50,931 nt of DNA from Erysipelotrichaceae bacterium (lineage in GTDB: Bacteria; Bacillota_I; Bacilli_A; RFN20; CAG-826). The DNA is taken from positions 1 to 50,931 of the forward strand of contig DURD01000022.1 in NCBI GenBank assembly GCA_012837435.1, given 5' to 3'. Each line of letters starts with the position of its first letter. Position 1 is the first letter of the stretch. The notes under the pieces were generated by a model. The model saw only the letters and a program-made list of their open reading frames with translations. It did no database searches and was not told where the DNA came from. Shown here one piece after another: positions 12,119 to 30,953 of the stretch. The position numbers were made by a program, and so were the translations under genes.

Positions 12119-13171
12119 ATGAGAAGATTTGATTATTCGTTTTTAGAAAAGGAACCTATTCCCTCCAATATTGCGTCAATGCTTTTTGCGATTGAAAGAA
12201 ATAAAACCACTTCTGATTTTTTTAAAGAAAAATATCCTCAAGTTTTTAATAATTTAGTAAAGATAGCAAAAGTGCAATCTGTTAAAGCCAGTAATGCCAT
12301 CGAAGGAATTGTAACGACTGATCAAAGAATTAAACAATTAGTTAATGAATCTACTGAACCTAGAAATCATAACGAAGAAGAAATTGCTGGCTATAGAGAT
12401 GTCTTAAATAGAATTCATCTAGATTACCAAACCATCGATATTGAAACTAGACAAATATTATTACTTCATCGTGATTTGTTAGAAAGAAAACAAACACCGA
12501 CGAGAGGGATGTTTAAAACAGTTGATAATGTCATAATGCAGATTAACGCTGATGGTAGTAGAAGTGTTAGATTTAGACCAGTTCCAGCGATTGAAACTCC
12601 TCAATCAATGGAACAACTTGAATTAGCGTTTATCGACGCTAGAAGTAACTCTAATATCAATCCATTATTATTAATTCCTTGCTATATTTTAGATTTCTTA
12701 TGTATCCATCCATTTGAAGATGGGAATGGTAGAATGTCTAGATTATTAACATTATTACTTTTATATAAAACTAGGTATGATGTTGGCAAATACGTTTCTC
12801 TAGAAAACATTATCAATAAGAATAAAGGCATGTATTACCAAAAACTTTATGAATCATCTTTAGGTTGGGCGGAGAACCGTAATTCTTATTGGCCGTTTAT
12901 TGAAAACTTTTTAATGACTTTGTTATCCGCTTATAACGAATTAATACGTCGATATGAGATTATTAAAGACAAGAAGTTATCGAAAGCGGAAAGAGTGGAA
13001 GAAATAATTAAAGCCACACTTGGAAAGATTACAAAAAAAGAGATTCATGAAATATGGCCGGATATCTCAATTAATACAATCGAACTCGAATTAGCAAGAT
13101 TGTTAAAAGAAGGATTGATTGAAAAGATGGGCAACACTAATGGCGCGGCCTATTTCTGGAAAGGGAAATAG
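12119..13171 (+). CDS. Fic family protein (class II, N-terminal autoinhibitory motif, C-terminal winged helix)
   Basis: HPFEDGNGRMSR Fic motif; SNAIEG fits the [S/T]xxxE[G/N] inhibitory motif. ATG at 12119 follows AGAGGT SD; ORF track start at 12113 is a TTG. Confidence 0.92.
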   Translation: MRRFDYSFLEKEPIPSNIASMLFAIERNKTTSDFFKEKYPQVFNNLVKIAKVQSVKASNAIEGIVTTDQRIKQLVNESTEPRNHNEEEIAGYRDVLNRIHLDYQTIDIETRQILLLHRDLLERKQTPTRGMFKTVDNVIMQINADGSRSVRFRPVPAIETPQSMEQLELAFIDARSNSNINPLLLIPCYILDFLCIHPFEDGNGRMSRLLTLLLLYKTRYDVGKYVSLENIINKNKGMYYQKLYESSLGWAENRNSYWPFIENFLMTLLSAYNELIRRYEIIKDKKLSKAERVEEIIKATLGKITKKEIHEIWPDISINTIELELARLLKEGLIEKMGNTNGAAYFWKGK

Positions 13172-25924: not shown

Positions 25925-26267
25925 ATTTGCCACGATAATGTTGATATTTGCTTTAGTTTTTACAATCGCTACGCTTTTTCTACTCCCCTTTTCTTTAGCT
26001 TTTGTCATTAATTCATTGGTGCTGATTTATACGCATGATCCTAGTAGTGGAGTGGTTATCTACTTTAATCATTTGTATTATGTCTCATTTCTCTACTTAA
26101 TTTTAACAGCTTGCTTGTCCGCGGCTATTTTGCCGTTTGACATCATTCTTTTAAGAAAAATGAGAATCAACACTTGGTATACTAAAGCTCTATTAATCTT
26201 TTCTATTTTGAGTTTAGCCTTATCTCTTTTATTGATATTTTCTCTTCCAGCAATCTATACATTATGA
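25911..26267 (+). CDS. Hypothetical small membrane protein
   Basis: Three hydrophobic segments; AAGGAG SD before ATG at 25911; stop overlaps lepA start. Confidence 0.6.
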
Positions 26268-28078
26268 AAATTTCAAAGAAAAAAATTAGGAATTTTTCCA
26301 TTATTGCCCATATCGATCACGGTAAAAGCACTCTAGCGGATCGTATTTTAGCAACGACAGGAGCCATCGAAGAAAGAGAAATGAAAGATCAGGTTCTTGA
26401 TTCTATGGATCTTGAAAGAGAAAGAGGGATTACTATTAAACTCAATGCGGTAACTTTTTCTTATCACGCCGAGGATGGTGAAGATTACACCTTCAATTTG
26501 ATTGATACTCCTGGACATGTGGATTTTACCTATGAGGTATCGCGTTCTTTAGCGGCTTGCGAAGGAGCGCTTTTAGTGGTTGACGCCACCCAAGGAGTGG
26601 AGGCTCAAACGTTGGCCAATGCCTATCTAGCGGTCGATAACGATTTAGAAATATTGCCAGTTATCAACAAAGTTGATTTGCCTTCCGCTAATGTCGAAAT
26701 GACCAAAAAACAAATCGAAAAGAAAATTGGAATTCCCTGCAATAAAGCGGTAGAAGTCAGTGCAAAAACCGGTTTTAATATCCACGAACTCTTAGAAGCT
26801 ATCGTCAAAGTAATCCCTGCACCTGAAGGTGATGAGAATGCTCCTCTCAAAGCTCTGATTTTCGATAGTTACTACGATCCTTATCGCGGAGTTATTGTGC
26901 TAGTGAGAATTAAAGAAGGTACAGTAAAAGTGGGTGATAAAATTCGACTCATGCAAGCGGATAAAGAATATCAGGTAATTGAACTAGGGATTAAAATCCC
27001 TAAAGAAGTCAAAACTGATGAATTAAAAGCTGGACAAGTTGGTTATTTAGCTGCGCAAATCAAAGACATCAAAGATGTCCGCGCGGGAGATACTATCACT
27101 TTGAGTGAAAATCCTACAAAAAATCCTTTACCTGGCTATAGAATAATAAATCCTATGGTTTATTGTGGCCTATATCCCGTCGAGAGTGATGATTATCAAG
27201 ATTTAAAAGAAGCTTTAGAAAAACTATCACTGAACGATAGTTCCTTTCAATTCATTCCTGAAACTAGCCAAGCTCTAGGGTTTGGTTTTAGATGTGGATT
27301 CTTGGGTTTATTGCACATGGATGTCGTCCAAGAAAGACTGGAAAGAGAATATAATCTCGATTTAATTTTAACAGCGCCCAGCGTTATTTATCACATTCAT
27401 ATGACCGATGGCACTATGATCAATTTAGATAATCCGAGCAAACTGCCCGATAGCAGTAAAATCGCCCATATCGAAGAGCCTTATGTCAAAGCCAGTATTA
27501 TGACACCTAAAGAATACATCGGCGCCATCATGGAACTATGTCGCGATCGAAGAGGCATCTATAACAATCTAGATTATTTTGACGAGACGAGGATGGTCTT
27601 AACCTATGAACTACCTCTTGCTGAAATTGTTTATAACTTTTTTGACAAGTTAAAAAGCTACACTAAAGGCTATGCGTATTTCGATTACGAATTTTCAGAC
27701 TATAAACAATCTAACCTTGCGAAATTAGATATTCTTCTCAATGGTCAAGTGGTGGATGCTTTAAGCAGTATCGTCTATCGTCCGGATGGCTATCGTCGCG
27801 GTTTGAATGTTATCAGAAGAATAAGAGACGTCATTCCCCGTCAACAATTTGAGGTTCCTGTTCAGGCTGCAATCGGCGGGAAAATTATCGCAAGATGCGA
27901 CGTCAAAGCCCTAAGAAAAGATGTCCTTTCTAAATGTTATGGGGGAGATATTTCTCGCAAAAAGAAACTATTAGAAAAACAAAAAGAAGGCAAAAAAAGA
28001 ATGAAGAAAGTGGGTTCTGTCGAAGTGCCCCAAGAAGCTTTTATGTCGATTCTTTCCATCGGTGATAAAGATGATTAA
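26264..28078 (+). CDS. lepA: Elongation factor 4
   Basis: [28 protein letters not shown], LepA C-terminal domain [24 protein letters not shown]-like. Confidence 0.97.
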
Positions 28079-28163
28079 TAGTGTAAAACTAGTAGTTTTT
28101 TGGAATTAGTTATTGAAATAAAAACAAATTAATATATCATAAAAGTAAGGAGAAAATACTTTT

Positions 28164-29642
28164 ATGGCAAGCACTGATTTAGCGATACGTTTTACGGAAG
28201 ATAAATACGCTAGTAAAAACGAAGTAGCACAAGAACTTAAGATTACATCTGTCGATACTTTTTGGAGCAATATTTTAGCGTATCGCTCCCATTTTCATCA
28301 TTATTTATCTTTAAAAACTATCGAAAAAAATATGCTAGTTTTTTGTGGCTGTCCTTCTATTAATAATCTCGTTAATACTCTCGAGATGAAACTGATAAAA
28401 GTTAGCCGTGAATATATGGCCATCACTCCTAGTAGTAAGTCAGCTAAAAAAATCGAATACACTTTTAAAAAACAAATACTCAACGCCTTAAATGAATGCG
28501 AAGAATTAGCGGTGGGAGAAGACTTTATCGAAAGCGTTATAAGAGAGGAATTAATCAATACCATTCCCGCTAACATGGTGCTGGTAAATCATTTGGAAGC
28601 TTTAAACTACATTAAACGTAGTTATGTCAATAATATCAACGAAGATTTCCTCGCGGAACTATATGCTAAATTATTGGGGACTGAAGAATTGACCTCGTTT
28701 TATCGCATTTTTGAAGATAAAAACCCTGAACATCGCGTTTTAATCGATCGCATTTATACTTCCGCCCCCGTAAATCTCATCGAATCGATGATGAACAATC
28801 TTTTTTCCTTCATCGCTTCCTCAAATTTATCGCCATCTTTAAAAGCGGTGGTGGTATTTTTCTACGTCAATTATGTCAAACCATTTAGTCAGTATTCCGA
28901 AGAAATTGCCATTTTGATGGCGAAAGCGGTTTTAGCTCACGATGCTTTTGGAGAAGTAGCGGTCATTTTACCTATTGAAAAACTTCTTCTTTTACCTAAG
29001 GAAGAATCGGCGCGCGTCTACGTCGAAGTTCAAAAAACCACAGACATCACTTATTTTGTCGATTATATTTTCAAATATTTAGTTAAATATTGCGATAATT
29101 TCTTAGAAGATATCGCCGCCAACAAAGTGATGGAAATGCGCGAAGACTTCTATCGAACCGACGAAGTCGAACCAGTGCAAATTCCAAGCGATGAAGACGA
29201 AGAAACCATCGATTTATTTTCTTATGGCGAAGAACAAAGCTTACAAGAAACTAAAGAAGAAATTGTCGAAGAAAAGATTTTAGAAAAGCCAACACCAATT
29301 CTAGAAAAACAAGAAATACCGAAGAAAAAAACCGTAAAAGTAAAATATGTTCAGGAGGAATTAGCGGTTTCCTATATTCCAGTAGCGCTCGATGAAAAGC
29401 AAGCCGTTCTTTTAGAACAAGACCTAATGGAAAGAGACCCAGAACTTAGAAAAGGCGAAGCTAAGTTTTATGCTAGACATTGTACGAAAGGCAAAAAATA
29501 TACTATCGCTCAATATAAAAAGAGTTTAAAATGTGCTTATGAAACCGCTCGGACGGCCATGGATCATTTAGTAGAACTAAATTACTATCGAAAAGAAAAA
29601 GTCAAAAATAAGTACGTTTACATTCCAGTAGAAAGAGATTAA
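28164..29642 (+). CDS. Fic-fold protein with degenerate active site
   Basis: Segment APVNLIESMMNNLFSFI...LKAVVVFFYVNYVKPFSQYSEEIAILMAKAVLA aligns in pattern to Fic helices, but HPFxDGNGR is replaced by VKPFSQYSEE. Confidence 0.6.
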   Translation: MASTDLAIRFTEDKYASKNEVAQELKITSVDTFWSNILAYRSHFHHYLSLKTIEKNMLVFCGCPSINNLVNTLEMKLIKVSREYMAITPSSKSAKKIEYTFKKQILNALNECEELAVGEDFIESVIREELINTIPANMVLVNHLEALNYIKRSYVNNINEDFLAELYAKLLGTEELTSFYRIFEDKNPEHRVLIDRIYTSAPVNLIESMMNNLFSFIASSNLSPSLKAVVVFFYVNYVKPFSQYSEEIAILMAKAVLAHDAFGEVAVILPIEKLLLLPKEESARVYVEVQKTTDITYFVDYIFKYLVKYCDNFLEDIAANKVMEMREDFYRTDEVEPVQIPSDEDEETIDLFSYGEEQSLQETKEEIVEEKILEKPTPILEKQEIPKKKTVKVKYVQEELAVSYIPVALDEKQAVLLEQDLMERDPELRKGEAKFYARHCTKGKKYTIAQYKKSLKCAYETARTAMDHLVELNYYRKEKVKNKYVYIPVERD

Positions 29643-29653
29643 GGAGATCAGTT

Positions 29654-29866
29654 ATGCCCCCAGTAGTTATATTTCTTATCGTTGTCGCTGTCGCGGCAGT
29701 TATCGCTTTAGCAGCGTTTTTTATCTATCGCGCTTTGAGACCGCGTTTAAAAGAAGAAAAACCTTCAGAAGAAGAAATCTTGGAAGACGAAATGAAAAGA
29801 GTTCTTCAAGATGTTGCTGATGAAAAAACTTCTAAAGAAATTATTAACTATAAACAAGATGAGTAA
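29654..29866 (+). CDS. Small single-pass membrane protein
   Basis: Hydrophobic N-terminus followed by acidic tail; SD AAGGAG upstream. Confidence 0.6.
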   Translation: MPPVVIFLIVVAVAAVIALAAFFIYRALRPRLKEEKPSEEEILEDEMKRVLQDVADEKTSKEIINYKQDE

Positions 29867-30953
29867 TCAGGCAAAATCTTTATATATCCATATCCCATTT
29901 TGTGAAAAAATATGCGATTACTGCGACTTTACCAAGTTGCAGTATTTTCGTAATTTTGCTGTTCCTTATCTTGAATCTTTAAAAAAAGAATTGGATTTTT
30001 ATCAACCACACAGTCTTAGCACCATCTATGTCGGCGGGGGAACTCCAACGGCTCTCGAACTAGATTTATTCCAACAACTATTAGAGATAATCGCCCCCTT
30101 TTCTACCGGGGTTATAGAATATACATTTGAAGCTAATCCCGAATCTTTATCGAAAGAAAAAATCTCATTAATGAAACAATTCGGGGTCAATCGCGTGTCA
30201 TTGGGGGTCCAGACCACCGATGATAAAATATTAGCGGCCATCAACCGTTCGCATCGCTTTAAGGATGTGCAAACCGCCATTAACAATTTAAAAAAAGGAG
30301 GTATTGAAAACATCAATGTCGATTTAATTTTAGGTTTACCTTACGCGAGCAAGCGCCTATTAATTAAGGATTTAAATCGCATTTTATCCTTAGGTGTTAA
30401 GCATATATCCTGTTATTCTCTTACTGTTCATCCCCATACGGTTTTATATCGCAAAGGTTATCGCGAAATTGATGATGACATATTGCGAGAATATTATGAT
30501 ATCGTCGAAGAAATATTGACCAAAAATAATTATATCCACTATGAAGTATCGAATTATTGCCTTCCTTCTTTTGAATCTAAGCACAATTTAACATATTGGC
30601 GGAACGAGCATTATTACGGTGTGGGTTTAGGAACTTCTGGATATTTAGATAATGTCCGCTACAAGAATACCAAAAATCTAAATAAATATTTAAAGGGTCA
30701 ATATCTCGATGAAGAAGAAATTTTAAACGACCAAGATCGATTGTTTTATCAAATCATGCTCAATTTAAGAACGATAGAAGGTTTATCTCTAAAAGAGTTA
30801 AAAGAAGATTTTTCTTTGGATTTATATCAGCAAAAAAAAGACATTATTGATGAATTTATAAAACAAAAATACCTTTATACGGAAGGCGATTATTTAAAAC
30901 CTACCTACCAAGGAATGATGATTTTAGACGCGATTATATTAAAATTAATATAG
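29859..30953 (+). CDS. hemW: Radical SAM coproporphyrinogen III oxidase-like HemW
   Basis: LYIHIPFCEKICDYCDF, YVGGGTPTAL motifs. Likely ATG at 29859 (ORF track 29811). Confidence 0.92.
   Translation: MSNQAKSLYIHIPFCEKICDYCDFTKLQYFRNFAVPYLESLKKELDFYQPHSLSTIYVGGGTPTALELDLFQQLLEIIAPFSTGVIEYTFEANPESLSKEKISLMKQFGVNRVSLGVQTTDDKILAAINRSHRFKDVQTAINNLKKGGIENINVDLILGLPYASKRLLIKDLNRILSLGVKHISCYSLTVHPHTVLYRKGYREIDDDILREYYDIVEEILTKNNYIHYEVSNYCLPSFESKHNLTYWRNEHYYGVGLGTSGYLDNVRYKNTKNLNKYLKGQYLDEEEILNDQDRLFYQIMLNLRTIEGLSLKELKEDFSLDLYQQKKDIIDEFIKQKYLYTEGDYLKPTYQGMMILDAIILKLI

Follow-up and report, generated by a model that had tools for sequence, protein, structure and literature searches.

A Fic-derived protein family with a degenerate active-site motif at the lepA–hemW locus of uncultured Bacilli

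Pseudo-enzymes are well known among kinases and little documented among Fic proteins. Fic clades that lack the catalytic residues have already been noted, together with AvrB, which is devoid of the motif (PMC4454073), and the Fic2 protein of Campylobacter fetus is degenerate yet toxic (PMC5651007). In Coxiella burnetii, the C-terminal HTH of the active Fic protein CbFic2 binds DNA, and DNA induces its dimerisation (PMC10628234). A literature search of partial coverage yielded no account of a Fic-derived protein encoded between lepA and hemW, the locus described here.

The gene under study, PFIC (pseudo-Fic), occupies positions 28164..29642 on the forward strand of the window, that is, the whole stretch of 50,931 nucleotides that was analysed. 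Its CDS of 492 aa starts with the ATG at 28164, sits between lepA and hemW and is supported by the ORF call, by homologues and by Fic homology. The architecture of PFIC recalls that of CbFic2, with a Fic core followed by a C-terminal (winged) HTH domain, putative in PFIC, but CbFic2 is catalytically active and PFIC is not expected to be. Like AvrB and Fic2, PFIC is related to Fic and has lost some or all of the motif. It is encoded on the chromosome and stays at a single locus, in contrast to these two proteins, of which one is an effector delivered by injection and the other acts as a toxin. Class II Fics (PDB 4rgl, 8cil and SoFic 3eqx/3zcn) match the PFIC profile over the N-terminal helices and the core. 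Unlike them, PFIC has neither HPFx(D/E)GNGR nor, at the aligned place, the inhibitory helix (S/T)xxxE(G/N) of the regulated Fics of Classes I-III, the aligned stretch being NALNECEELAVGED.

The nearest intact relatives of PFIC that we found are Fics with a variant motif, HPYxDxNGR, which recur in the same class (L103-L119). These proteins (e.g. L103, 408 aa) are collinear with PFIC over residues 7-323 and have in common with it Y-I-x-Y-I before the loop, Y-N inside it and D-[IL]-T-Y-F after it. They differ in that PFIC has its catalytic His, Gly and Arg replaced and a longer acidic linker, and the tails are weakly comparable. The PFIC tail also gives a weak but repeated match to the winged helix of BlaI/MecI (Penicillinase_R, PF03965) in 19 of 37 members, below the cut-off of a family whose overall architecture is unrelated.

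Fic homology and the altered active-site loop

As judged from alignments and profile comparisons, PFIC is a true Fic homologue. Its segment NLIESMMNNLFSFI...YVNYVKPFSQYSEEIAILMAKAVLA matches intact Fics column by column, with KPFSQYSEE facing HPFxDGNGR or HPYxDYNGR. A phmmer search of PFIC against the fetched ORFs returned genuine HPFxDGNGR Fics (E=6e-8 to 7e-5), with VKPFSQYSEE placed exactly under the motif. With hhalign, profile A2, built from 38 PFIC homologues, aligned to four HPFxDGNGR Fics at 97.7% and E=1.7e-12, and the PFIC profile aligned to twelve HPYxDxNGR Fics at 99.5% and E about 1e-22 over residues 7-323; the controls, namely a column-shuffled and a reversed alignment of the HPYxDxNGR Fics and two unrelated families, were empty. 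Among PDB Fic structures, the best match of profile A2 was 4rgl (E=1e-10, profile positions 62-314). Taken with the empty controls, the hhalign and PDB matches indicate that the Fic descent is real and spans the N-terminal two thirds of the protein, beyond the loop. The preliminary description had recognised a Fic helix pattern around the loop; the Fic homology stands, but it covers the N-terminal 323 residues and not the loop alone.

No Pfam or NCBIfam model matches PFIC over any cut-off. PFIC itself gives no match to the Fic model PF02661 at E<=10, and so lies below the Pfam gathering cut-off, and a weak match to this model is present in 18 of 37 family members (best 2.9e-5). A protein search of related genomes with PFIC gave matches in 47 out of 59, and a scan of viral contigs found no relative. 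In a maximum-likelihood tree, 18 PFICs make up a single clade (support 100/100) that is separate from the 27 intact Fics, although the long branches limit inference on the sister group of PFIC. A DnaD/DnaB-like role of PFIC in replication initiation was considered and set aside, since the homology is to Fic.

All parts of the gene are given on the forward strand. The N-terminal segment (residues 1-62, RFTEDKYASKNEV...YRSHF...LSLKTI; 28164..28349) is kept even in the eroded homologues of 210-320 aa. It is followed by the Fic-derived helical region (residues 63-323; 28350..29132), supported by alignment to Fic proteins and by dN/dS data. This region holds the destroyed active-site loop KPFSQYSEE (28878..28904), in place of HPFxDGNGR or HPYxDYNGR, and a D-x-T-Y motif (D294, T296, Y297; 29043..29054) common to the HPYxDxNGR Fics, where it reads DLTYF; its D and T are invariant in alignment A4. 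An acidic linker of variable length (residues 321-404, pI 4.4; 29124..29375) leads to a basic, winged-helix-like C-terminal domain (residues 405-492, pI 9.2; 29376..29639) bearing a near-invariant YETARTSM, and both pI values agree with the acidic linker and basic C-terminus proposed at the outset. Upstream of the gene, TTGAAA-16-TATCAT (28113..28140) is promoter-like by consensus match only. A similar sequence precedes the PFIC orthologues of the same genus, and promoter consensus matches are no commoner near PFIC than in shuffled sequence.

Alignment to intact Fics confirms that the canonical motif is destroyed and replaced by VKPFSQYSEE, as first described, and the family alignment extends this degeneracy to the whole family. 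The position of the catalytic His is never H in 72 non-redundant homologues: it is K in 47, R in 8 and otherwise Q, V, N, L or A, with a gap in 4. The last Gly position of the loop is E or D in 51 of the 72 and the final Arg has become E in 54, and Pro and Phe are retained in most, the usual loop being [K/R]PFxxY[S/N]EE. None of the 72 homologues has an intact Fic motif elsewhere in the protein. Compared with the nearest active type, HPY-x-DYNGR, the loop KPF-xx-Y[S/N]EE keeps Y-N and has three residues changed, and these three are needed for catalysis and phosphate binding in Fic enzymes. The best reading of the loop is that PFIC is a pseudo-enzyme, expected to be catalytically inactive.

The replacement loop is conserved in its own right, AvrB is classed alongside Fic and Doc despite having no motif (PMC4454073) and the degenerate Fic2 is still toxic (PMC5651007), all of which would fit a catalytic activity that PFIC has kept, or a new and different one provided by [K/R]PFxxY[S/N]EE. 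We hold this to be improbable, given that the residue at the His position varies, as do the other replaced positions, that acidic residues stand in place of the anion-binding Gly and Arg, and that the loop is missing altogether from the homologues of 210-320 aa.

Selection, genomic context and resident Fics

Among close relatives of the same genus, dN/dS ranges from 0.03 to 0.08 in the dead core (residues 195-320) and from 0.10 to 0.36 in the linker, and the C-terminal domain has zero non-synonymous differences at dS 0.09-0.40. Such low values rule out decay and indicate that the dead core is maintained. A decaying pseudogene or a chance ORF, which the lost catalytic motif and the shortening or loss of PFIC in some lineages might suggest, is already refuted by dN/dS values that stay well under 1 across all regions and has a practically negligible probability; moreover, the frame is open in all homologues on intact contigs, and no family-f1 genome with an assembled locus is without the gene. 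In the first 62 codons (28164-28349), synonymous differences are unusually few among a few close relatives, an effect that is slight genus-wide.

The upstream neighbour, lepA (EF4; 26264..28078, forward strand), and the downstream neighbour, a hemW-type radical SAM gene (29859..30953, forward strand, start inferred), are both conserved. They flank 66 of 81 non-redundant PFIC homologues on the same strand, in keeping with the housekeeping context reported initially; 14 others have one of the two and 1 has neither, many lying at contig ends. As for the f1 genomes that seem to be without PFIC, hemW matches are only partial in G004 and G014, the PFIC frame of G248 runs off the contig, G565 likewise yields no real match to lepA, and the G016 genome is 66% complete. 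Because these cases go together with an assembly that is absent or broken at the locus, missing assembly is their likely cause. The lepA–hemW loci examined in families f4, f6 and f8, which belong to the same order, have no PFIC, and in most of them the two genes enclose no other large gene. An ORF of 425 aa found there at locus L133 was considered as a diverged PFIC and rejected, being adenylosuccinate synthetase.

The single-TM acidic protein adjoining PFIC in the preliminary description is real (70 aa; 29654..29866, forward strand, upstream of hemW) but is not specific to PFIC. It is conserved upstream of hemW together with PFIC and, more weakly, where PFIC is absent, which ties it to hemW and not to PFIC. 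Its candidacy as a dedicated PFIC partner was dropped, since the PFIC-free families f4, f6 and f8 have it ahead of hemW as well. Order-wide (loci L006-L088), a single-TM acidic protein of about 70-140 aa is found directly upstream of hemW, with PFIC or without it.

The genome also encodes active-looking Fics, as previously stated: five Fic matches exceed the Pfam cut-off and have HPFxDGNGR motifs, and one of them lies within the window (12440-12763). At G000:C39:101633-103132, two Fic genes with intact motifs (L002 and L004) share a strand and are separated by about 1 kb; this genome of 1.1 Mb totals five Fic matches above the cut-off.

Could PFIC, itself inactive, regulate the resident active Fics or pair with them in the manner of an antitoxin, for instance in heterodimers? 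Most PFIC genomes also have intact Fics (a Fic match was found in 54 of 59 relatives), and Fics can bind and restrain each other, a degenerate one included (Fic1/Fic2 of Campylobacter fetus, PMC5651007). Such a partnership is nonetheless very doubtful. The homologue is present without any Fic match in G022, G050 and G245, and the sole Fic match of G475 is the PFIC homologue itself; since these genomes keep the homologue with no intact Fic detected, the co-occurrence with active Fics raised by the preliminary description turns out to be incidental. Furthermore, PFIC is single-copy and bound to its locus, whereas the number of intact Fics differs from one genome to the next, and the most conserved part of PFIC is the tail and not the Fic core. 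Partnership with active Fics does not by itself explain PFIC.

Short homologues

Family f25, which falls outside the order, encodes proteins of about 300-320 aa at the lepA–hemW locus that match both the N-terminus and the C-terminal domain of PFIC and have no Fic loop; the L146 homologue, with 210 aa, is shorter than the other f25 forms. The f25 profile matches PFIC at E=8e-32 and gives no direct match to active HPY Fics, its link to Fic passing only via PFIC. A protein with a Spo0A_C domain adjoins the eroded PFIC homologue in 8 of the 9 f25 loci examined, and the two seem to occur together at the lepA–hemW locus. Lying between the eroded homologue and hemW, the f25 Spo0A_C proteins match PF08769 over the cut-off (L089:2591-3349, L090:3376-4089, L091:3551-4225, L093:1514-2203, L146:1561-2211 and L150:2579-3400). 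Any Spo0A match was found in just one family-f1 genome among those searched.

Two small genomes also have a homologue directly after lepA, of 416 aa with two TGA read as Trp in G475 (0.65 Mb), and of 218 aa in G536 (0.80 Mb). TGA codons break the frames of the G475 PFIC homologue (L161:2308-3555) and of the G536 lepA (L162:771-2570), as expected under code 4. We infer that the short PFIC forms derive from the long ones. A fuller history can be offered tentatively, with a probability somewhat short of even: a Fic captured at a fixed chromosomal locus, at an early stage of this part of the class, would have turned into a DNA-binding regulator that belongs to the core gene set and is perhaps essential. 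The enzyme domain would have been inactivated first and later reduced or deleted in separate lineages, including the small code-4-like genomes, so that forms of about 490, 416, 300 and 210 aa survive.

The C-terminal domain and a proposed role

Over 37-38 members, the C-terminal 88 residues of PFIC are basic (median pI 9.3), and the core and linker are acidic (median pI 4.7 and 4.5). The sub-threshold matches of this domain to Penicillinase_R reach 1.8e-4 at best, and the PFIC of the window scores 15 bits, under the cut-off of 22.6. A match to SoFic-like_C (PF21248) was seen only in the eroded homologue L146, at 1.4e-3 and under the cut-off. The profile of the C-terminal domain gave nothing significant against the tail of active HPY Fics or against PDB sequences. 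An AlphaFold2 model of the full PFIC with six sequences had a mean pLDDT of 39 and was discarded; that of the C-terminal domain reached a pLDDT of 68 with no wing modelled, and Foldseek returned no match under E=1 for it.

Because the tail is basic and conserved and gives sub-threshold matches to DNA-binding families, and because CbFic2 offers a precedent, we read PFIC as a DNA-binding protein for which the dead Fic core serves as scaffold, and infer a winged-helix fold, DNA binding, dimerisation and a regulatory role. From the sequence data at hand, we lean modestly towards a pseudo-Fic that has been exapted and exerts its effect, probably on DNA, by means of the C-terminal domain. The retained non-enzymatic role suggested by the preliminary description is thereby refined: the protein is Fic-derived, with a dead motif, and under selection, and a non-enzymatic role, probably via the basic domain, is the best reading.

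The ancestor would have been a Fic, nearest to the HPYxDxNGR type and with a winged-helix-like C-terminal tail, that settled between lepA and hemW in a bacterium ancestral to this part of the class. Once captured, it would have lost its catalytic residues, His giving way to Lys or Arg and the anion-binding Gly and Arg to Glu, and the pseudo-Fic would have been kept because the basic C-terminal domain had become important. PFIC would then most likely be a DNA-binding regulator, whose basic domain may touch DNA via the near-invariant YETARTSM helix and be tethered by the acidic linker. The dead Fic core would provide a scaffold for dimerisation or partner binding, presumably trimmed off where unneeded to leave the homologues of 210-320 aa.

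A winged-helix-like domain is a versatile binder, and the adjacency to lepA is conserved; the tail might thus act on RNA, the ribosome or a protein instead of serving as a DNA-binding regulator, which would fit its place after lepA. We regard this as unlikely, for the families that the tail matches below threshold are DNA-binding repressors and the eroded forms adjoin a Spo0A_C-domain protein. In addition, PFIC may have its own promoter, and its adjacency to lepA therefore need not imply a common function.

PFIC represents an entire family of orthologues whose Fic core is dead and whose gene has been kept at a single locus; the genomes are reduced, and stages of the core's erosion survive among them. 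If the DNA binding proves true, a toxin-like enzyme family would be shown to give rise to a core regulator, and an unnamed gene of uncultured Bacilli would be given a function.
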